Origin: a virus
Length of the DNA: 21,152 nucleotides
Reading direction: 5' to 3' (one strand)
Virus record (IMG/VR): IMGVR_UViG_3300022413_000048
Span: 1 to 21,152 of that record
Numbering within the stretch: position 1 is the stretch's first letter; every line of letters starts with the position of its first letter. Of this stretch, positions 4,463 through 18,278 are shown one piece after another. The position numbers and the translations under genes are program-made. The notes under the pieces were generated by a model that was not told the DNA's origin, did not search any database, and worked only from the letters and a program-made list of their open reading frames with translations.

Positions 4463-5576
4463 GAAGGACCGCGCCGGAGCATCGGACATGAGCCCGCAGC
4501 GGCTCGCGGAGGTCACCGGGATCCCCCTGCCGGCGAGACCGAAGCTGGTGCCCGCGACCAAGATGCTCGAGCGCGCCGGGCCGCCGGACTTCCTCATCCA
4601 GGGGCTGATGGAGAAGGACACCTACGGTGTGCTGTTCGGCAAGTGGGGCGCCGGCAAGTCCCTGGTGGCGCTGGATTGGGCGCTGCGGATCTCCCTGGGG
4701 CTGCCGGTGCAGGGCCGCAAGACCGAGCAGGGCCCGGTCGTGTACGTGGTCGGCGAGGGCCACGGGGGGATCGCGCGGCGCATCGCCGCCTGGCAGGCGC
4801 TCACGGGCTACCAGGTCAACGACCTGCTGGTGTTCACCGAGCAGGCGGTCCCGATCGGCGACGAGCAGGCCGTGCAGCTCCTGCACCAGGAGATACGGGC
4901 GCACGTCGCGCGCTGGGGGCGGAATCCGGCGGCCATCTTCAGTGACACCCTGGCGCGTAACTTCGGGCCCGGGGACGAGAACTCGAACTCGGACATGGGC
5001 CAGCACGTCATGATGGTCGACCGCTGGCTGCGAACACCCTTCGGGGCCACCGTGCTGGAACTCCACCATCCCGGGCACCAGGAGTCCGAGCGCGGTCGCG
5101 GCGCCAGCGCCCTGCCGGCGGCCTGCGACTTCGAGTACCGGTTGGAGGCCAGCGGCCCGGAGCTGACCCTGGCCACGACCAAGACCAAGGACTTCGAGCC
5201 GCCCCCGGCGCTGCGCTACCGCATCGAGCCTGTGAAGCTCTCTGTTGGCACCGACGAGTTCGGGCACCCAACCCAGCGCTATGAGTCCGCTGCGGTCTCT
5301 GAGAGCGGCGAGGTGGCCGACAGCGGTGCTTCCGGGGAGGTTCGAGACGAGGCCCTCGATGTCCTGCGGGCGATCTACCGCGACCACCAGGACACACTGG
5401 ACGCTGCCGCGCTGCCGGTCGAGCAGGCCCGGGTCAGCACCCGGGAGTGGCGCGTGCGGCTCGTGGAGGAGGGAATTCTCAGTGGGAAATACGCCAAGCA
5501 GGACTTTTACAAAATCAGGCAGCGGCTGCAGAAAGCGGGCTCGGTTCGCTTCGACGGCCGCTATGTGTACCTCTGA
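4449..5576 (+). CDS. RepA-like AAA (AAA_25) replicative helicase/ATPase
   Basis: A RecA-fold ATPase of 375 residues. Walker A is GKWGAGKS at 64-71. The family-typical GEGHGGIARR is at 102-111. The Walker B-like strand AAIFSDTLAR at 161-170 carries D166. The ELHHPGH sensor-like motif is at 204-210, followed by RGRGASAL. The C-terminal ~100 residues look like a separate winged-helix-like domain (REWRVRLVEEGILS...). Members of this family are hexameric DNA helicases or loaders in phage and plasmid replication. AGGAGGAGAG lies about ten bases before the ATG. The stop codon overlaps two possible starts of the next gene region. Confidence 0.85.
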   Translation: MSTDEKDRAGASDMSPQRLAEVTGIPLPARPKLVPATKMLERAGPPDFLIQGLMEKDTYGVLFGKWGAGKSLVALDWALRISLGLPVQGRKTEQGPVVYVVGEGHGGIARRIAAWQALTGYQVNDLLVFTEQAVPIGDEQAVQLLHQEIRAHVARWGRNPAAIFSDTLARNFGPGDENSNSDMGQHVMMVDRWLRTPFGATVLELHHPGHQESERGRGASALPAACDFEYRLEASGPELTLATTKTKDFEPPPALRYRIEPVKLSVGTDEFGHPTQRYESAAVSESGEVADSGASGEVRDEALDVLRAIYRDHQDTLDAAALPVEQARVSTREWRVRLVEEGILSGKYAKQDFYKIRQRLQKAGSVRFDGRYVYL

Positions 5577-6648
5577 TGTGGCTGCTACCCGAGCAACTGC
5601 GCTCTCTGTCTTCTCTGGCGTCGGAGGGCTCGACCTCGGATGGGAGTGCGCCACCGCCGGACGGGTTGTGGGCTACGTCGAGCGGGACGTGTTCGCAGCG
5701 AGCCTGCTCCTGGACAGGATGGAGGACGAGGCCCTGGAGCCGGCGCCTGTCTGGGCGGGCGACATCACCGAGCTCGACCTTGCCCCATTTCAGGGGGTGG
5801 AGTGGGTGCTCGGGGGCTTCCCCTGCCAGGACATCAGCCAAGCCGGGACCGGGGCCGGCATCAGCGGCGAGCGCTCCGGGCTCTGGTCAGAGCTTTTCCG
5901 CGCCTATCGCGACAGTGGAGCCCGGTACCTGTTCGCTGAGAACGTCTCAGCAATCACTATTCGAGGACTCGACCGCGTTCTGCACGACCTTGCCGAAATC
6001 GGGTGCGCTGCGGAGTGGCTCTGCCTACGAGCGTCCGATGTTGGCGCCCCGCACCGGCGCGAGCGCTGTTTCATACTCGCGGAACGAGTACCCGACGCCG
6101 AGCGCGACGCCCTACGGCAGCAGCCAGAACGAGGGCCAGGTGGAGCACAGTCGCCCGAGCAAGGGGACCCCGAGCCTCGATACCTGGGCGCGGCAGATGT
6201 GGCCGACGGTGACCGCGGGCGACGCGAAATCGAGCGGGAGCCGGAACGCGCCAGGGTCGGCGGCGCATCAGGGAGTGAGTCTCAGCGATGCGGTCAGCAC
6301 CGGGGACAGCGCGGGGCGGCGATGGGCGACACCGGCGGCGCGGGACTATCGGACGCCCAATTCCGCCGAGAGCCAAGCCCGACGGGCGGAGGGCAGGGAG
6401 ACAGCCGGGCAGCAGCTCGTGAATCAGGTCGAGCACTCTTTCCTCCCGGTCCCCAGGGAGACTGGGGAGACATCGAGCCCGCCCTCCAGCCGGCGATTGA
6501 ACCCGGGCTTCGTGTCCTGGCTGATGGGGCTCCCCTGGTGGTGGACGCATCCCGAGCGGACCAGCTTCGCTGCCTCGGAAATGGCGTCGTACCGCTACAG
6601 GCTGCGGTCGCTCTACGAGAGTTGCTGCGGCGCATCAAACAGCAGTAA
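5563..6648 (+). CDS. C5-cytosine DNA methyltransferase
   Basis: This enzyme transfers a methyl group from SAM to cytosine C5. Numbered from the ATG at 5563 (361 aa), motif I is VFSGVGGLDLGWE (16-28), motif IV is GGFPCQDIS with catalytic C88, motif VI is ENV (126-128), motif VIII is HRRERCF (164-170), and motif X is RCLGNGVVP (about 336-344). The GTG at 5578 is an alternative start; neither start has a clear ribosome binding site, so coupling to the helicase is likely. Residues about 176-320, where the target-recognition domain should be, are oddly rich in Arg, Glu, Gly and Gln and look disordered. The same DNA in another frame encodes conserved-looking motifs. The likely role is modifying phage DNA against host restriction. 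Confidence 0.9.
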   Translation: MCTSDVAATRATALSVFSGVGGLDLGWECATAGRVVGYVERDVFAASLLLDRMEDEALEPAPVWAGDITELDLAPFQGVEWVLGGFPCQDISQAGTGAGISGERSGLWSELFRAYRDSGARYLFAENVSAITIRGLDRVLHDLAEIGCAAEWLCLRASDVGAPHRRERCFILAERVPDAERDALRQQPERGPGGAQSPEQGDPEPRYLGAADVADGDRGRREIEREPERARVGGASGSESQRCGQHRGQRGAAMGDTGGAGLSDAQFRREPSPTGGGQGDSRAAARESGRALFPPGPQGDWGDIEPALQPAIEPGLRVLADGAPLVVDASRADQLRCLGNGVVPLQAAVALRELLRRIKQQ

Positions 6649-6721
6649 ATCCGCATTGCTCGCAAAGGTAGCCAAGGTAGCCAGTACATCCGCAAAAGGT
6701 AGCCAGGAGGTAGCGAGGTAG
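5576..6721 (+). CDS. Overlapping +1-frame ORF with methyltransferase-associated motifs, 381 aa
   Basis: A second frame is open across the whole methyltransferase gene. It has an ATG at 5576 that shares its A with the helicase stop (TGATG) and ends at the TAG at 6719-6721. From residue about 130 it carries motifs I recognise from phage proteins often annotated as methyltransferase-like: LPKSGALRSGSAYERP, YPTPSATPYGSS (172-183), MWPTVTAGDAKSSGS (208-222), WATPAARDYRTPNS (250-263) and RLNPGFVSWLMGLPWWWT (307-324). Residues 1-130 look like a shadow of the methyltransferase frame. Either this is a true overprinted gene, or only its distal part is used, by frameshifting or an internal start. The family match is from memory and needs a search. 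Confidence 0.45.
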   Translation: MWLLPEQLRSLSSLASEGSTSDGSAPPPDGLWATSSGTCSQRACSWTGWRTRPWSRRLSGRATSPSSTLPHFRGWSGCSGASPARTSAKPGPGPASAASAPGSGQSFSAPIATVEPGTCSLRTSQQSLFEDSTAFCTTLPKSGALRSGSAYERPMLAPRTGASAVSYSRNEYPTPSATPYGSSQNEGQVEHSRPSKGTPSLDTWARQMWPTVTAGDAKSSGSRNAPGSAAHQGVSLSDAVSTGDSAGRRWATPAARDYRTPNSAESQARRAEGRETAGQQLVNQVEHSFLPVPRETGETSSPPSSRRLNPGFVSWLMGLPWWWTHPERTSFAASEMASYRYRLRSLYESCCGASNSSKSALLAKVAKVASTSAKGSQEVAR

Positions 6722-6790
6722 CCAAAGTAACCAGGTAGCCTAAAGGAGGCCCGGGCTACCGGTAGCCGGCTACCTTTGGAGGTAGCCGGC
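6667..6790 (+). repeat. GGTAGCC direct-repeat array ending in a perfect hairpin
   Basis: GGTAGCC occurs at 6667, 6676, 6698, 6717, 6734, 6761 and 6781, with variants GGTAGCG at 6709 and AGTAACC at 6726. Inverted copies (GGCTACC) lie at 6754 and 6768. The last copies form a perfect 10-base-pair hairpin: GCCGGCTACC (6765-6774), a six-base loop, and GGTAGCCGGC (6781-6790). No T-run follows, so a simple terminator is unlikely. Iterons of a replication origin, or sites for a DNA-binding protein, fit the place after the helicase and methyltransferase genes. The first copies also encode the tail of the overlapping ORF. Confidence 0.75.
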
Positions 6791-10046: not shown

Positions 10047-10376
10047 ATGGCGCAGGGAAAAAAGACAGGCGGCCGCCCCCCGGGGGTGAAGAACAAGCGC
10101 ACCCGGGAGATGGCGGCGATCATCGAGGCCGCGGCTCCGGGCTGGGACCCGATCGCCTGGCTGGCGATGATTGCCCAGACCGGCTGCATTCCCCCCGCGC
10201 CCGGACAGCCCCCGGCGACGCCCGGGGCCGCCCCTGAGGTAGAGCCCGAGCTCCGGGTCCAGTGCGCCAAGATCGTCGCGCCCTATCTCTACCCGCAGAA
10301 GAAGGCCGTCGAGCACTCCTCCGACCCCGACAAGCCCATGACCTTCCACGTCACGAATCTCGATGCCGCGATTTGA
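10047..10376 (+). CDS. terS: Terminase small subunit (TerS)
   Basis: This DNA-recognition subunit of the packaging motor has 109 residues from the ATG at 10047. The basic start, GKKTGGRPPGVKNKRTREMA, is typical of phage small terminases. A Pro-rich middle leads to LRVQCAKIVAPYLYPQKKAVE, also typical of the family. The gene lies directly before TerL and overlaps it by 14 bases, which strongly supports the call. An ATG at 10029 is in frame, but neither start has a ribosome binding site. I chose 10047 because of the basic motif and the promoter geometry. Confidence 0.75.
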   Translation: MAQGKKTGGRPPGVKNKRTREMAAIIEAAAPGWDPIAWLAMIAQTGCIPPAPGQPPATPGAAPEVEPELRVQCAKIVAPYLYPQKKAVEHSSDPDKPMTFHVTNLDAAI

Positions 10377-11721
10377 GCTCACAGCGAAGCAGGTCGAGCA
10401 GCTGCGGCTCATGGCCGGGCCGGCGATGCATGTCGGCGCCGACGGGGGCTCGCGCTCCGGCAAGACCTTCGGCTTCGTCCGCGGGGTGGTCATGCGTGCG
10501 CTGAAGGCAGCGGGTTCGAGCCACGCGGTGCTGCGCTTTCGGCACTCGCACCTGCTGGCATCGGTCGTGGCGCAGACCCTGCCGGAGGTGATGTCCTCGT
10601 GCTTCCCCGGCGCGGACTACCGCATCAACAAGTCCGAGTGGTACGTCGACCTTGGGCAGATGTCGAAGATATGGCTCGGCGGGCTCGACGAGAAGCAGCG
10701 CGTGGAGAAGATTCTGGGACAGGAGCACGCCACCATCTTTCTCAACGAGTGCTCGCAGATTCCCTACTCCTCCCGCCAGGTCGCGGTCACCCGACTCGCG
10801 CAGAAGGTGCAGCAGGACTTCAACGGCAAGCGCGAGCAGCTGTCGCTGAAGATGTACTACGACCTCAACTCGCCGACCAAGAGCCACTGGTGCTATAAGC
10901 TGTTCCACGCCAAGGTGGACCCCGACACCGGCAAGGCGCTCGCGAATCCGAACCGGGTCGCGGTGGTGCGCATGAATCCGCTCGACAACTCCGCGAACCT
11001 GCCGAAGGAATACCTCGACGAGCTCGCGAGCCTGCCGCCGCGGCTGCGCATGCGCTTCTACGAGGGCGAGTACGCAGACCAGCTGGAGTACGCGCTGTTC
11101 GACGAGGTCACGGTCGAGAAGTGGCGCGCGACCGACGACGAGCTGCCGGACATGGTCCGCATCGCGGTCGGCGTCGACCCCTCGGGGGCGGACGACATCG
11201 ACAACGCCGGCAACGACGAGATTGGGATCGTGGTCGGCGGGCTCGGGTCCGACGGCAACGCCTACCTGCTGGAGGACATCTCCATCAAGGCCGGGCCGAA
11301 GACCTGGGGCAAGGTCGCCACCGACGCCTACGACCGATGGGAGGCCGACATTGTGCTCGGGGAGGACAACTTCGGCGGGGCCATGGTCAAGCATGTGATC
11401 CAGACCGCGCGCACGGACACTCCCTATCGATCGGTCAAGGCATCCCGCGGCAAGGTGCGGCGCGCGGAGCCCTTCTCTCCGCTCTACGACGAGGGCCGGG
11501 TCCGGCACCGGGGGCGCTTCACCAAGCTAGAAAGCGAACTGTGCGCCTTCACCACCTACGGCTACACCGGCGACGGCAGCCCCAACCGCGCGGATGCCTG
11601 GGTCTGGGTGCTCGCGGACCTGTTCCCGCAGATGGTCAAGCCGCGGCATGAGCCCAGGCAGCCCGCGCCCAGTAACCCCTACTCGCACGCGCTCCGCGGC
11701 CCACACGGATGGATGGCATGA
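10363..11721 (+). CDS. terL: Terminase large subunit (TerL)
   Basis: The ATPase/nuclease of the packaging motor, 452 residues. Walker A is GGSRSGKT (28-35). The Walker B-like strand is ATIFLNE, with E129 as the likely catalytic glutamate. The C-terminal RNase-H-like nuclease shows VGVDPSG (D272), VLGEDNFGG (E334 or D335) and NRADAWVWVLADL (D411). The length is normal for the family. The start is inside terS and has no ribosome binding site of its own, so coupling is likely. The stop overlaps the portal start. Confidence 0.95.
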   Translation: MPRFELTAKQVEQLRLMAGPAMHVGADGGSRSGKTFGFVRGVVMRALKAAGSSHAVLRFRHSHLLASVVAQTLPEVMSSCFPGADYRINKSEWYVDLGQMSKIWLGGLDEKQRVEKILGQEHATIFLNECSQIPYSSRQVAVTRLAQKVQQDFNGKREQLSLKMYYDLNSPTKSHWCYKLFHAKVDPDTGKALANPNRVAVVRMNPLDNSANLPKEYLDELASLPPRLRMRFYEGEYADQLEYALFDEVTVEKWRATDDELPDMVRIAVGVDPSGADDIDNAGNDEIGIVVGGLGSDGNAYLLEDISIKAGPKTWGKVATDAYDRWEADIVLGEDNFGGAMVKHVIQTARTDTPYRSVKASRGKVRRAEPFSPLYDEGRVRHRGRFTKLESELCAFTTYGYTGDGSPNRADAWVWVLADLFPQMVKPRHEPRQPAPSNPYSHALRGPHGWMA

Positions 11722-14066
11722 TGGCTTACGCGAAGAAACGCTCGAAGAAAGACTCCGCCGACGGCGACATCCTCGAGGAGGCCATGGACCGCTGGAAGGA
11801 GGCCAACGAGGCCGAGAGCGAGTTCCGCCGCAAGCACGACGAGTGCATGGCCTTCGATGCCGGCGACCAGTGGCCGGAGGAGTTGCGCAGCTTCCGCGAG
11901 CGCGACCCCACCAACCCGCGGCCCTGTCTCACCATCAACAAGGCAGCAAGCCACCGCCGGGTGGTCACCAACAGCATCCGCATGTCCCGCCCGCAAATCC
12001 GGGTCAACCCGGTCGACGACCAGGCCGACGTCAAGACCGCGAAGATGTTGAATGGCATCCTGCGCAACATCCAGAACAACTCCATGGCCGAGGTTGCCTA
12101 CGACATGTCCGTGCACTCGGCGGTCGTCTCCGGGCTTGGCTACATCCGGGTCGCGACGCAGCTTGTGGAGCCGATGTCGAATCTGCAGGAGGCCTGCATC
12201 AAGCCGGTTACGAACACCACCGCGGTGCACATGGACCCGTACTTCGAGTTCCCCTCGGGCCAGGACGCGAACTGGTTGCTGCACGATGAGATGGCGACCC
12301 TGGCCGCGCTCAAGGAGGAGTTCGGGGCGAAGAAGGCCGAGTCCGCCACCCACTGGGAGGGCATCGAGCCGATTGGCGCCAGCGCGCGCAATCCACGCAT
12401 CGCGCTCACGCGCTACTGGCGCAAGTTCATGGGCGAGAAAACCCGCATGCTCGCGCTCTACGACGGCACCCGCGCCAGCGCGGAGCAGTACCAGGAGCAG
12501 TACGGCGACGTTCCCGAGCGCCCGCAGGTGATGTCGGAGTGGGACGCCCGCGACATCAAGGTGCGCTGGTACCTGCTGCACGGCGACGGCATCCTCGACC
12601 AGGGGCTGTTCCCCAGCCAATACATCCCCTACGCCCGCGTCGTCGGCGAGGAGTCCATCGTCAAAAACCGGCGCCGGACCCGGGGATTGACTCAGGACAT
12701 CATGGACCCCTGCCGCATGTACAACCTGCTCTCGAGCACCATCGCAGAGCACGGCGGGGTGTCCCCGAAGCAACCGCTCATGGCGCCGATGGAAAGCATT
12801 GAGGGTTACGAGCAGGACTACGCCACCCTCAACACCTCCAACAAGCCGGTTCTGCCCTATCGGGCCTACGACGGGCAGGGCAACCCGCTGCCTCCGCCGC
12901 AGCGTGTGCCGCCGGTGCCGCTGCAGGTCGGGCTGGTGGACGCGCTCATGCGCACCGCCGACGACGTCAAGAGCGCGAGCGGGCAGTTCAACGAGTCCAT
13001 GGGCGCGGAGTCGAACGCGAGCTCCGGGCGTGCGATTCGCGCGCGGCAGCAGGAGTCACAGGTCAGCACCTTCCACTTCGTCGACAACCTGGCGCAGGCG
13101 ATGCGCTATGCCGGGGTGGTGCTGCTGGACATCATCCCGAAGATTTACGACGTGCCCCGCGTCGCGCGCATCCTGGGCGAGGACGGGGAGGCCGACTTCG
13201 CGCAGATTGACCCAGAGCTCGAGGTGGCCTACGCCGAGGACGAAGAGGGCAAGGGGATCTACAACCCGACCGTAGGCAAGTACGACGTGGTTGTGTCCAC
13301 CGGCCCCAGCTACCAGACCAAGCGGCAGGAGCAGGCCGAGGCCATCGGGGATGTGCTGCAGCACAATCCGCAGCTGTGGGCGGTCATGGGCGACAAGCTG
13401 GTCAAGGCGATGGACTGGCCCGACAGCGACGAGATGGCGGAGCGCCTGAAGGCAATGCTACCGCCTGAGATACAGCAGCTCGAGGAGGCCCGCGGCGAGG
13501 GCATGGAGGCCGGGCAGCAGCAGGCGGAGATGATTCGCCAGGGACTGCTCGCGGAGATCGCCCCACGGGTGCAGGCAATGGAGCAGGCGCTGGAGGAGGC
13601 TGGAATGGAGTCCGAGCAGCAAGTCGCCATCATTGCGGAACTGGAGCAGAAGCTCGAGGACAAAAGCATGGAGCTCATGCAGAAGGCCCGCGAGGCGGAG
13701 ATGGAGCACCAGGCGAAGCTGGCGGCCGCGGAGGCCGGGGTGGTCGAGGCGCGAGAGAAGGCCGAGGCCGATGTCGCGGTCGCCTACATCGCCAGCACCA
13801 CCGCGTCGCAGCAGCAGAGCGAGCCCGCCCCAGAGCAGCAGTCCGGCTCCGATGCCGCAATGCTGCTGTTATTGCAGGACATGCGACAGCAGATGCAGGA
13901 AGTTTTGCAGGATGTCTCGCAGGCGGTGTCGAGCGTCAATGCGAAGGTAGACGACTTGGCGATGGAGCGCGAGGTCACGAAGCAGGCTGTCATGCAGTTC
14001 TTGTCAACCGACCAGTCCGACGAGGCGTTGGCCGTTGCGGTCGCGCAGATAGAAGCAATCCACTGA
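11718..14066 (+). CDS. P22-like portal protein with long coiled-coil C-terminus
   Basis: The portal ring forms the DNA gateway of the head. It has 782 residues from the ATG at 11718, which overlaps the TerL stop; 11709 and 11721 are also possible starts. The body matches P22 gp1-type portals: AFDAGDQWPEELR, NPRPCLTINKAASHRRVV, RPQIRVNPVDD, a middle with PYFEFPSGQDANW, then SSGRAIRARQQESQ and YDVVVSTGPSYQTKRQE. The last ~200 residues are rich in Glu, Gln, Ala and Met and strongly coiled-coil-like, as in the barrel of P22-type portals, but ending in an unusual Gln/Ser-rich segment. It is a clear marker for a P22-like short-tailed phage. Confidence 0.93.
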   Translation: MMAYAKKRSKKDSADGDILEEAMDRWKEANEAESEFRRKHDECMAFDAGDQWPEELRSFRERDPTNPRPCLTINKAASHRRVVTNSIRMSRPQIRVNPVDDQADVKTAKMLNGILRNIQNNSMAEVAYDMSVHSAVVSGLGYIRVATQLVEPMSNLQEACIKPVTNTTAVHMDPYFEFPSGQDANWLLHDEMATLAALKEEFGAKKAESATHWEGIEPIGASARNPRIALTRYWRKFMGEKTRMLALYDGTRASAEQYQEQYGDVPERPQVMSEWDARDIKVRWYLLHGDGILDQGLFPSQYIPYARVVGEESIVKNRRRTRGLTQDIMDPCRMYNLLSSTIAEHGGVSPKQPLMAPMESIEGYEQDYATLNTSNKPVLPYRAYDGQGNPLPPPQRVPPVPLQVGLVDALMRTADDVKSASGQFNESMGAESNASSGRAIRARQQESQVSTFHFVDNLAQAMRYAGVVLLDIIPKIYDVPRVARILGEDGEADFAQIDPELEVAYAEDEEGKGIYNPTVGKYDVVVSTGPSYQTKRQEQAEAIGDVLQHNPQLWAVMGDKLVKAMDWPDSDEMAERLKAMLPPEIQQLEEARGEGMEAGQQQAEMIRQGLLAEIAPRVQAMEQALEEAGMESEQQVAIIAELEQKLEDKSMELMQKAREAEMEHQAKLAAAEAGVVEAREKAEADVAVAYIASTTASQQQSEPAPEQQSGSDAAMLLLLQDMRQQMQEVLQDVSQAVSSVNAKVDDLAMEREVTKQAVMQFLSTDQSDEALAVAVAQIEAIH

Positions 14067-16052: not shown

Positions 16053-18278
16053 GTGGCAACGGACTTCGGCAGCGGCAACACCACGCGGTACTACACCGTC
16101 GGCTCTGCCGCTCAGATTGATGCGGACGATAGCTATTCCTTTGGCATTCTTTATCGCGTTCCATCAGGCCGCGCGGCTGGGTCGAGCTACCCCTATGTTA
16201 TAAGCGCGGGCGCCGGAACGTCCGTAAACAGCTATCACCTGTACATGGCCGAGGACAGCGCCGGGGCTTCGTATCCGAATGACTGGTTCGGGAAGTACGA
16301 AAATGAGAACACCAAGCGCATTGACACGGGAGACATTGATGATGGCGTTTGGGGCGTTGCCGTTCAGGGCACCGGCCCTGGAACGACGCAGCACAAGATG
16401 CGCTGGGTTCCGTGGGGCGGGACGACGCTCACCGTTTCCTCGGGAAGCAACCCGGGCACTGGTGCATCGACGCCGACCGGCAATCTGCACATCGGTGCTC
16501 GCAGCTCTGACCTGAGTTCGACCCGCATGTATAAGGCCGAACTGGCCTACGCCTTCGTGTCGCAAGACATCATGGAAGACGCGGAGATTATCGCGCTCGC
16601 CAACGGGCTCTCGCCGCTGGCCTTGAGCCACGACTGGGCGCACCTGGTCGACCTAACTGACCCGGACAATGTCCGAGACTTGATTACAGGCGTTACCGCC
16701 ACCCAGAACGGCGCGAGTTGGCCGGCGCAGGCTGAGCAGCTAATGGCGCTGGAGCCGCCCTCGGTGTTCTATTCGTTTGGGACGGGCGCTGCGGCCGGCG
16801 CAACCGGGACCGGGACGCAAACACTCCCGGCAATAGAGCAGGCCGCGACCGGCGCGCAGGAATTCATCGGATCTGGGGCTCAGACGCTACCATCGCTGAG
16901 CCAATCCGCGAGCGTCGTGCAGACATTCTCGGCGACATCCGCGCAGACATTGCCGGCTGTTCTGCAGTCCGCGAACGTCTCGCTGGAGTTCCTGGCGACC
17001 TCAGCGCAGGCGCTGCCTGCCCTGACTCAATCGGCAACCGCCGCTCTCGAGATCACAGCCACCGCGGTGCAGGTCCTGCCTGCGATGACGCAGTCGGGCT
17101 CTGTGACCCACACCGAGAACGTCTCGGTCACGGCGGCGCAGACCCTGGCGGCGCTAACGCAGTCCGGCTCAGTGACCCATACGGAGAATGTGAGCGCGAC
17201 CGCGGGCCAGGCCCTCCCCGCGCTAACGCAGTCGGGCTCGATCACCGAGACAGTTAGCGGCACCGCGACGCAGACCCTCCCGGCGCTCGAGCAAGCGGGA
17301 ACGCTGAGCGAGGGCATAAGCCTGACCGGCGCGCAGAGCCTGCCATCCATCGCCCAGGCAGGGGCCGTCACCGAAACCCTTTCCGCCGCCGCAGCGCAGA
17401 CCCTGCCCGCGCTGACGCAAGAGGGCTCGGTGACTCACACGCAGAACGTGAGCGCCACCGCGACACAGAGCCTGCCCGCGCTCAGCCAGTCCGGGTCGGT
17501 CACCGAGACCTTCAGCGCAACAGCGGCGCAGACGCTCCCGTCCCTGGAGCAGGCCGGAGCGGTCACCCACACCGAGGGAATGAGCGCCACCGGTGCCCAG
17601 ACCCTCCCCGCGCTGACGCAGCAGGGGACGGTCGCCGAGGAGATCACCGCAAGCTCGGCTCAGAGCCTGCCCGCGCTCGAGCAGAGCGGCTCGATCACCC
17701 ACACAGAGAACGTCAGCGCGACGGCTACCCAGACGCTACCGGCGCTCAGCCAGAGCGGTGCCGTCACCCATACCGAGACCACAATCACCCTCACCTCGGG
17801 CCAGACCCTGCCCTCCGTGGTGCAGTCCGGGTCCGTAACAATGGCCCCGAGCGCCACCGCGGCGCAGGCGCTTCCGGCGTTGCTGCAGTCTGGTGACTTC
17901 CTCTACCCCGAGGCGCCACCCGTCAGCGAGGCCACCGGCGGCTGGGGTGCGGCCCGGGGCCGGCGCAAGCGGCGCAGGGAGTGGGAGGGGGCGCCCTTCG
18001 ACGCCAAGGTCGAGGTCGAGCGACAGGAGGCGAGAGAGCGCGCCGAGCAGCGAGAAACGCTATCGCTAGGGGAGGAGGCGCCCGAGGATGCTCTGTACCG
18101 CGATGAGTTCGAGTCGGCGATGGAGCCTGACGAGGTCGAGCGGCTTATCGCCATTCTCGAGGCCGATGTCGGGGACCTGGCCGACCGGCTGGCGGTCATT
18201 GTCGACCTCGATGCCGCCGCCGCCAGTGCCGCGCTCAGGCGCCGCCGGGCCGCCGCGCTGCTGCTTCTGGTGGGCTGA
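16053..18278 (+). CDS. Repeat-rich fibre-like protein with LamG-like head, 741 aa
   Basis: The GTG at 16053 follows the previous stop by one base. Residues 1 to about 230 look like a LamG/concanavalin-type beta sandwich (NTTRYYTVGSAAQIDADDSY, GNLHIGARSSDLSSTRMYKAEL). Residues 252-620 are 17 tandem repeats with core AQTLPALTQSGSV. The C-terminal ~120 residues are different: a basic patch (GRRKRRRE), then acidic and Ala-rich helices. This would make a long fibre or spacer with a possible carbohydrate-binding head. The place between portal and scaffold is unusual for a fibre gene in P22-like phages. Confidence 0.7.
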   Translation: MATDFGSGNTTRYYTVGSAAQIDADDSYSFGILYRVPSGRAAGSSYPYVISAGAGTSVNSYHLYMAEDSAGASYPNDWFGKYENENTKRIDTGDIDDGVWGVAVQGTGPGTTQHKMRWVPWGGTTLTVSSGSNPGTGASTPTGNLHIGARSSDLSSTRMYKAELAYAFVSQDIMEDAEIIALANGLSPLALSHDWAHLVDLTDPDNVRDLITGVTATQNGASWPAQAEQLMALEPPSVFYSFGTGAAAGATGTGTQTLPAIEQAATGAQEFIGSGAQTLPSLSQSASVVQTFSATSAQTLPAVLQSANVSLEFLATSAQALPALTQSATAALEITATAVQVLPAMTQSGSVTHTENVSVTAAQTLAALTQSGSVTHTENVSATAGQALPALTQSGSITETVSGTATQTLPALEQAGTLSEGISLTGAQSLPSIAQAGAVTETLSAAAAQTLPALTQEGSVTHTQNVSATATQSLPALSQSGSVTETFSATAAQTLPSLEQAGAVTHTEGMSATGAQTLPALTQQGTVAEEITASSAQSLPALEQSGSITHTENVSATATQTLPALSQSGAVTHTETTITLTSGQTLPSVVQSGSVTMAPSATAAQALPALLQSGDFLYPEAPPVSEATGGWGAARGRRKRRREWEGAPFDAKVEVERQEARERAEQRETLSLGEEAPEDALYRDEFESAMEPDEVERLIAILEADVGDLADRLAVIVDLDAAAASAALRRRRAAALLLLVG
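16806..17912 (+). repeat. 17 tandem protein-coding repeats (60-72 bp)
   Basis: Each unit follows the pattern xTxxQxLPALxQSGSVTxTxS. By eye the lengths in residues are 21 (ten units), 23 (five units), 24 (one) and 20 (the last). The 23-residue units carry an insert ending THTENVS or similar. The first four units lack the SGSVT segment and are more diverged, which suggests that the array grew in its middle and distal part. Confidence 0.85.

Follow-up and report, generated by a model that had tools for sequence, protein, structure and literature searches.

Two overlapping reading frames in a phage C5-cytosine methyltransferase gene as the probable sources of its two structural domains

Why should a methyltransferase gene carried by a phage be open in two reading frames across some 1.1 kb of the same strand, and what does the second frame encode? 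The question arises from one locus in the window, by which we mean the whole 21,152-nt stretch of viral DNA analysed here. On its + strand, frame A is open from stop to stop at 5236-6648 and frame B, which is +1 relative to A, at 5303-6721. The original prediction placed two overlapping open frames at 5576-6721, and this is correct, the interval being exactly the B reading frame from ATG to stop; it went on to suggest that methyltransferase family motifs are shared by both frames, that the two could be a true overprinted pair, and that the overlap may record how the protein family of the second frame arose. The window itself is identified as a tailed-phage fragment, carrying a terminase large subunit and a P22-like portal (PF16510, 1.5e-132) at 10363-14066; near the capsid and portal genes there is also a 741-aa open reading frame (16053-18278), composed largely of repeats like TATQTLPALEQSGSV, for which no Pfam match was found.

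Frame A encodes a putative alpha subunit (5563..6648, + strand), which PF00145, phrog_363, AlphaFold and VIA-align identify as the large domain of a C5-methyltransferase with motifs I-VIII and X. The PF00145 match (2e-26) covers residues 10-173 only, the phrog_363 match reaches 2e-50, and the nearest solved relatives, M.HaeIII and M.HhaI, align in sequence over motifs I-VIII only. All of the C5-methyltransferase motifs originally read in this frame are present on the + strand: motif I, for AdoMet binding (ALSVFSGVGGLDLG, 5599..5640, aligned with M.HaeIII); motif IV, GGFPCQDIS, with the PCQ and the catalytic cysteine (5812..5838); motif VI, ENV (5935..5952); motif VIII, APHRRER (6046..6066); and motif X (LRCLGNGVVPLQAA, 6565..6606). 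Between VIII and X frame A offers a linker (6133..6543, +) that is unconserved as protein, free of stops and predicted to be disordered, as judged by pLDDT, silent fraction and stop counts. Motif IX is not found in A, and a motif-IX-like sequence sits in B. The recognition (TRD) region and motif IX, which in a canonical enzyme are found between VIII and X of a single chain, here lie in the +1 frame, and the window gene is a split member of the C5-methyltransferases, not a canonical single chain.

Frame B encodes a putative beta subunit (5576..6721, +) with an N-terminal arm, TRD modules and motif IX, an assignment based on phrog_1008, homologues and selection tests. When each frame was searched separately, as had been proposed, A matched PF00145 and phrog_363 and B matched phrog_1008, labelled 'DNA methyltransferase', at about 2e-22 to 4e-22; B had no match in the PDB by sequence and none in Pfam. 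The last part of the phrog_1008 profile is also matched by the motif X end of A, and it was this that first pointed to the two frames as belonging to a single enzyme. The B motifs quoted in the original prediction are all there. Three TRD-type modules span 6089..6358 (+), namely YPTPSATPYGSS at 6089-6124, MWPTVTAGDAKSS at 6197-6235 and WATPAARDYRTP at 6323-6358, and near the 3' end RLNPGFVSWLMGLPWWWT (6494..6547, +) is written over EPGLRVLADGAP of A (6499-6534). The tail of B (ALLAKVAKVASTSAKGSQEVAR) is composed of GGTAGCC-type repeats, short direct repeats of this kind being clustered at 6657-6790, at the 3' end of the B reading frame and just beyond.

The nature of B becomes apparent from relatives in which its sequence is not nested. 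In a single-frame methyltransferase, L126, motifs I-VIII are followed in one frame by several TPT modules, then VSPAFVEWLMGLP, then LGNGVVPQQ; this protein matches both phrog_363 (4e-61) and phrog_1008 (3e-45, residues 208-410), its TRD modules are homologous to those of B, and its VSPAFVEWLMGLP, between the TRD and motif X, corresponds column by column to RLNPGFVSWLMGLPWWWT of the window. In Mycobacterium phage Wiks (L173), a second gene annotated separately, gp89, has TPT modules, motif IX and motif X and matches phrog_1008 at 9e-86, while frame A stops 15 codons past motif VIII and is closed over the shared region. A profile of Wiks-type split second chains matched the nested B family with a probability of 98.4% (E 4e-15) in a profile-profile comparison. 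From the order of motifs in L126, from gp89 and from this match, it follows that LNPGFVSWLMGLP is C5-methyltransferase motif IX and that the WPTP repeats make up its variable TRD region. The predicted sharing of family motifs was therefore not borne out: to judge by their motifs, A and B are complementary halves of one enzyme. Nor, on the same grounds, does the overlap appear to mark the origin of a new protein family, for B looks to be the displaced C-terminal half of the enzyme and not a de novo gene, and its WPTP/LNP..WLMG part an ordinary C5-methyltransferase small domain (TRD plus IX) moved to the +1 frame. What is newly overprinted is the A-frame linker across the TRD/IX segment and the N-terminal arm of B.

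Structural models agree with this division of labour. The textbook partition of C5-methyltransferases assigns motifs I-VIII and X to the large domain and the TRD and motif IX to the small domain (PMC3404938). AlphaFold models alpha confidently at residues 8-190 and 329-360, with pLDDT of about 95 for residues 10-180 (motifs I-VIII) and 96-97 for the motif X helices, and mostly 35-50 for the linker at about residues 191-327. The large-domain fold predicted for alpha includes motif X: VIA-align superposes model residues 9..361 on residues 10..325 of M.HhaI at Z ~23, with 207-221 residues aligned at both ends in untrimmed alignments. The model and its match to M.HhaI together imply that the large domain of alpha is complete and that, in the place of the small domain, it carries an insert that seems to be unstructured. 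Beta modelled alone gives low confidence (mean pLDDT 58), and it may need alpha to fold.

Evidence of selection depends largely on relatives. As single queries against viral contigs, B of the window retrieved 0 relatives and A retrieved 2, and alignments were for this reason used as queries in later homologue scans. Since the window has no close relative among the loci gathered, the best A identity being 53% over 165 columns, pairwise tests of selection rest on its relatives, and the case for the window itself rests on homology, a shift in composition and mild openness statistics.

One must ask first whether frame B is simply a shadow, that is, an off-frame reading of GC-rich DNA whose conservation is inherited from the conserved methyltransferase. 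Stop codons were counted against a null in which one protein and its codon usage are held and synonymous codons are shuffled. Taken alone, the window departs only mildly from chance in its openness, with 0 stops where 2.7 are expected (p ~0.017), as a shadow could produce, but across homologues the openness goes far beyond chance. With A fixed, the +1 frame has 12 stops between motifs IV and VIII against 135 expected, and the other frame 348 against 374, in a first count of 120 loci that had been picked for an open A, a condition that the repeats dropped. It is also true that, over motifs VI-VIII, conserved residues of A partly determine the sequence of the B arm, DLAEIGYDAEW in A giving a TWPRSGMMRSG-like sequence in B; however, AT-rich loci (GC 0.44-0.50) are open too, with 0 stops against up to 7.7 expected, B homologues exist where A is closed, the third frame behaves as a null, and distal substitutions prove to be silent in B and not in A. 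We accord the shadow reading almost no probability, and the proposal of a true overprinted pair is supported: B has independent homologues (Wiks gp89 and the C-terminal half of L126), and in relatives it is not broken but kept open, being in the distal part the better conserved of the two frames.

The converse count concerns frame A. With B fixed, and where motif X lies in A, frame A has only 4 stops between VIII and IX against 524 expected, and is open in 157 of 160 loci; in these same 160 loci the third frame has 961 stops against 923 expected, which is the level of chance. Where motif X lies in B, A has 101 stops against 110 expected and is broken in 20 of 20 loci. Thus A stays free of stops through the TRD only in loci where it has to reach motif X. 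The class with motif X in B was the replacement for an earlier no-overlap control, the 'single-frame' loci (63 stops in +1 against 66 expected), which was dropped when their TRD modules were found to be +1 up to motif IX in 19 of 37. Three loci, L051, L056 and L270, are the sole nested cases with X in A and an A interrupted between VIII and IX, and could represent decay, sequencing error or genuine exceptions.

Substitutions tell the same story by segment, and the codon-position and silent-site comparison that had been proposed for homologous loci shows an A signal in the proximal part and a B signal in the distal part. Across 536 related pairs from 86 loci, counted as all pairs and so not independent, rates at A positions 1/2/3 are.13/.06/.34 before motif IV,.18/.12/.45 from IV to VIII,.30/.11/.08 in the variable region,.17/.08/.06 at motif IX and 0.095/0.046/0.277 from motif X onward; the wobble position of B is A position 1, so the wobble signal passes from A (I-VIII) to B (TRD, IX) and back to A (X). 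When each locus was used once, giving 42 independent pairs, 63% of distal codon changes were silent in B and 8% in A, B being higher in 42 of 42 pairs, and 66% of proximal changes were silent in A and 13% in B, A being higher in 38 of 40. Around 50 codons before motif VIII show intermediate rates, as expected if both frames count, and in the window a dual-constraint stretch (5927..6025, +), recognised from stop counts and wobble rates, places the B arm SLRTSQQSL..LPKSGALRSG over A motifs VI-VIII; the A wobble rate, about 0.45-0.48 before it, is down to 0.32-0.39 in this stretch. Little constraint at the protein level is seen in the N-terminal third of B, before motif IV. In the window, the GC-richest codon position before motif VIII is A position 3 (0.77, position 1 having 0.73), and past motif VIII it is A position 1 (0.87, position 3 having 0.64), that is, the B wobble. 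Stop counts and substitution patterns together show that selection follows A for motifs I-VIII, B for the TRD and motif IX, and A again for motif X, with one structural domain to each frame. Both frames are under selection among the homologues.

These patterns also bear on the idea that only beta is translated distally, frame A there being a residual open frame, the decaying or unneeded tail of alpha, with motif X supplied in some other way. The linker, unconserved as protein (8% silent) and predicted to be disordered, is what such an idea would lead one to expect; yet it is nearly free of stops (4 against 524) only in loci with X in A, constraint at the A wobble position comes back at motif X, and the motif X helices are confidently predicted and packed as in M.HhaI. 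We therefore regard a residual A as very improbable, and prefer to see alpha as extending through to motif X.

Among the relatives, the arrangement is widespread and variable. A scan of viral contigs with the B alignment gave at least 350 relatives among the first 600 stretches listed, and a scan of bacterial genomes gave 158. The original prediction took the B motifs to be those of stand-alone phage proteins, but here they are not stand-alone, since a methyltransferase frame overlies B at exactly +1 in all 160 loci kept from the B scans (80 viral and 80 bacterial). The offset is +1 in 224 of 225 resolvable frame-shifted loci; the other, L323, is +2, and has the look of a slip by one base in both frames. 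Motifs were located by regular expressions, which left about 40 loci unassignable, and the architectures found comprise a single frame, an AquI-like split, a TRD in +1 followed by motifs IX and X in frame 0, and the fully nested form. In actinophage and Streptomyces relatives (L180-L208, L224-L233, L268-L329) the TRD modules are either in +1 up to motif IX or divided between +1 (one module) and frame 0 (the others), so that a homologous TRD module switches frame between relatives; in L126 all are in frame 0. A tree of the catalytic part, with weak internal support, requires at least 5 changes for the nested state and places the window in a group of 36 members, 35 nested and 1 split. Because the architectures form such a distribution, it suggests that frameshift mutations put the small domain out of frame and were tolerable through complementation between chains; fragments of C5-methyltransferases are known to complement (PMC3404938). 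We consider it rather probable that a large phage and prophage lineage, extending across many bacterial phyla, has a gene whose two overlapping frames each encode one of the structural domains of a single enzyme, linked to its relatives by a graded series of frameshifts of the recognition domain.

A switch of the selected frame from segment to segment would look alike if a single polypeptide were made by two programmed frameshifts, +1 past motif VIII into the TRD and IX and back again before X, and the change of frame of a homologous TRD among actinophages is in keeping with this. Double frameshifting, however, needs neither A to be open over the TRD nor B to be open before motif VIII, and both are kept open (A, 4 stops against 524; B, 12 against 135), A being closed in exactly those loci that have motif X in B (20 of 20). 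Many loci, moreover, have paired and overlapping start codons, and M.EcoHK31I, with the same split of motifs, works as two chains. We judge a doubly frameshifted product unlikely.

The starts in the window are of this paired kind. The preceding gene encodes an AAA_25 ATPase, and its TGA (5574-5576) overlaps the B ATG at 5576 (TGATG); the candidate starts of A are GTG 5578, 2 bases past the B ATG, and ATG 5563, either of which may be used. The junction TGATGTGG would accordingly hold the upstream stop, the beta ATG and the alpha GTG, and the ATGTGG pair recurs in an Acidovorax phage (L004) and in L008. In 90 of 173 nested loci the B ATG lies at most 13 nt from a possible A start, 55 of these being ATGAATG, and in 118 of 166 loci the open stretch of B reaches back to the A start, while in the other 48 it begins 10-138 codons before motif VIII. 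No clear ribosome-binding site was seen before 5563-5578 in the window. The spacing of these codons is consistent with translational coupling and dual initiation. The true beta start could also be later, at TTG 5666 or 5780, because the N-terminal third of B is so little constrained.

The explanation that we favour, and consider very probable, is a two-chain (heterodimeric) C5-cytosine methyltransferase with one reading frame for each structural domain. Frame A would give alpha, the AdoMet-binding catalytic large domain, running from motifs I-VIII through an unconserved and probably disordered linker of ~140 residues to motif X, and frame B would give beta, the N-terminal arm, target-recognition modules and motif IX that make up the DNA-binding small domain. 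The starts of the two chains probably lie 2-13 nt apart, where the preceding AAA-ATPase gene ends, and the chains would assemble into one active enzyme that methylates a cytosine in its target. Its most likely role would be that of an orphan phage modification enzyme protecting phage DNA.

In each of the 14 nested public records that we checked, a full gene is given for one frame only: A in 9 (L168-L172, L174, L176, L177, L342) and B in 5 (L004-L006, L175, L341). In four of these records B is annotated as 'cytosine-specific methyltransferase' or as hypothetical and the catalytic A is missed (L004, 3007-4140; L005, 2533-3699; L006, 2737-3417; L341, 1106-2221). Of these, L004 and L005 are Acidovorax Alfacinha phages and L341 is Synechococcus phage Ssp-JY39. 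PHROGs lists phrog_1008 and phrog_363, matched by B and A of the window respectively, as separate families, and we found no note that they are two frames of one gene. If the two-chain reading is true, many phage methyltransferases annotated as one chain work as two, hundreds of 'methyltransferase' and 'hypothetical' phage genes are each half of a heterodimer, and an annotated gene cloned alone would seem inactive or without specificity; the DNA target specificity of these phages would then be predicted in the overlooked frame. For studies of evolution, the locus offers an unusually clean same-strand overlap, with two frames, two domains and unnested relatives as controls.

A search of the open-access literature found no report of such an overlap in phage methyltransferases, and we have not found described its size and spread in phages, the selection of one domain per frame or the systematic half-annotation. 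A hidden frame of another sort is known from actinophage methylases, where the ShiLan element is an HNH endonuclease lying out of frame (PMC11855218); it is a homing element that has inserted there and has nothing to do with methylation, whereas the second frame described here encodes half of the enzyme. The principle itself is already known from M.EcoHK31I. Lee et al. reportedly described in 1995 that the genes of its two subunits overlap, the small-subunit one being read in an alternative frame, and overlap of this kind is seen directly in the window and its relatives. This E. coli enzyme (YGGCCR) is an experimentally known two-polypeptide C5-methyltransferase with motifs I-VIII and X in the large subunit and IX in the small (PMC3404938), and the window divides these motifs between its two frames in the same way. 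There are differences: the TRD of M.EcoHK31I is assigned to the large subunit (PMC3404938), whereas in the window it is the small-subunit frame that holds the conserved and selected TRD; B here often spans the whole A gene; and M.EcoHK31I belongs to a restriction-modification system, while the window gene is phage-borne and has no adjoining nuclease gene. M.AquI (CYCGRG), also of two polypeptides, is naturally split in the variable region (PMC3404938), and a split of its kind, with motif X in the second chain, occurs in some relatives, such as gp90/gp89 of Wiks; unlike M.AquI, the window keeps motif X in alpha, and its second frame is nested within the gene and not mostly downstream.
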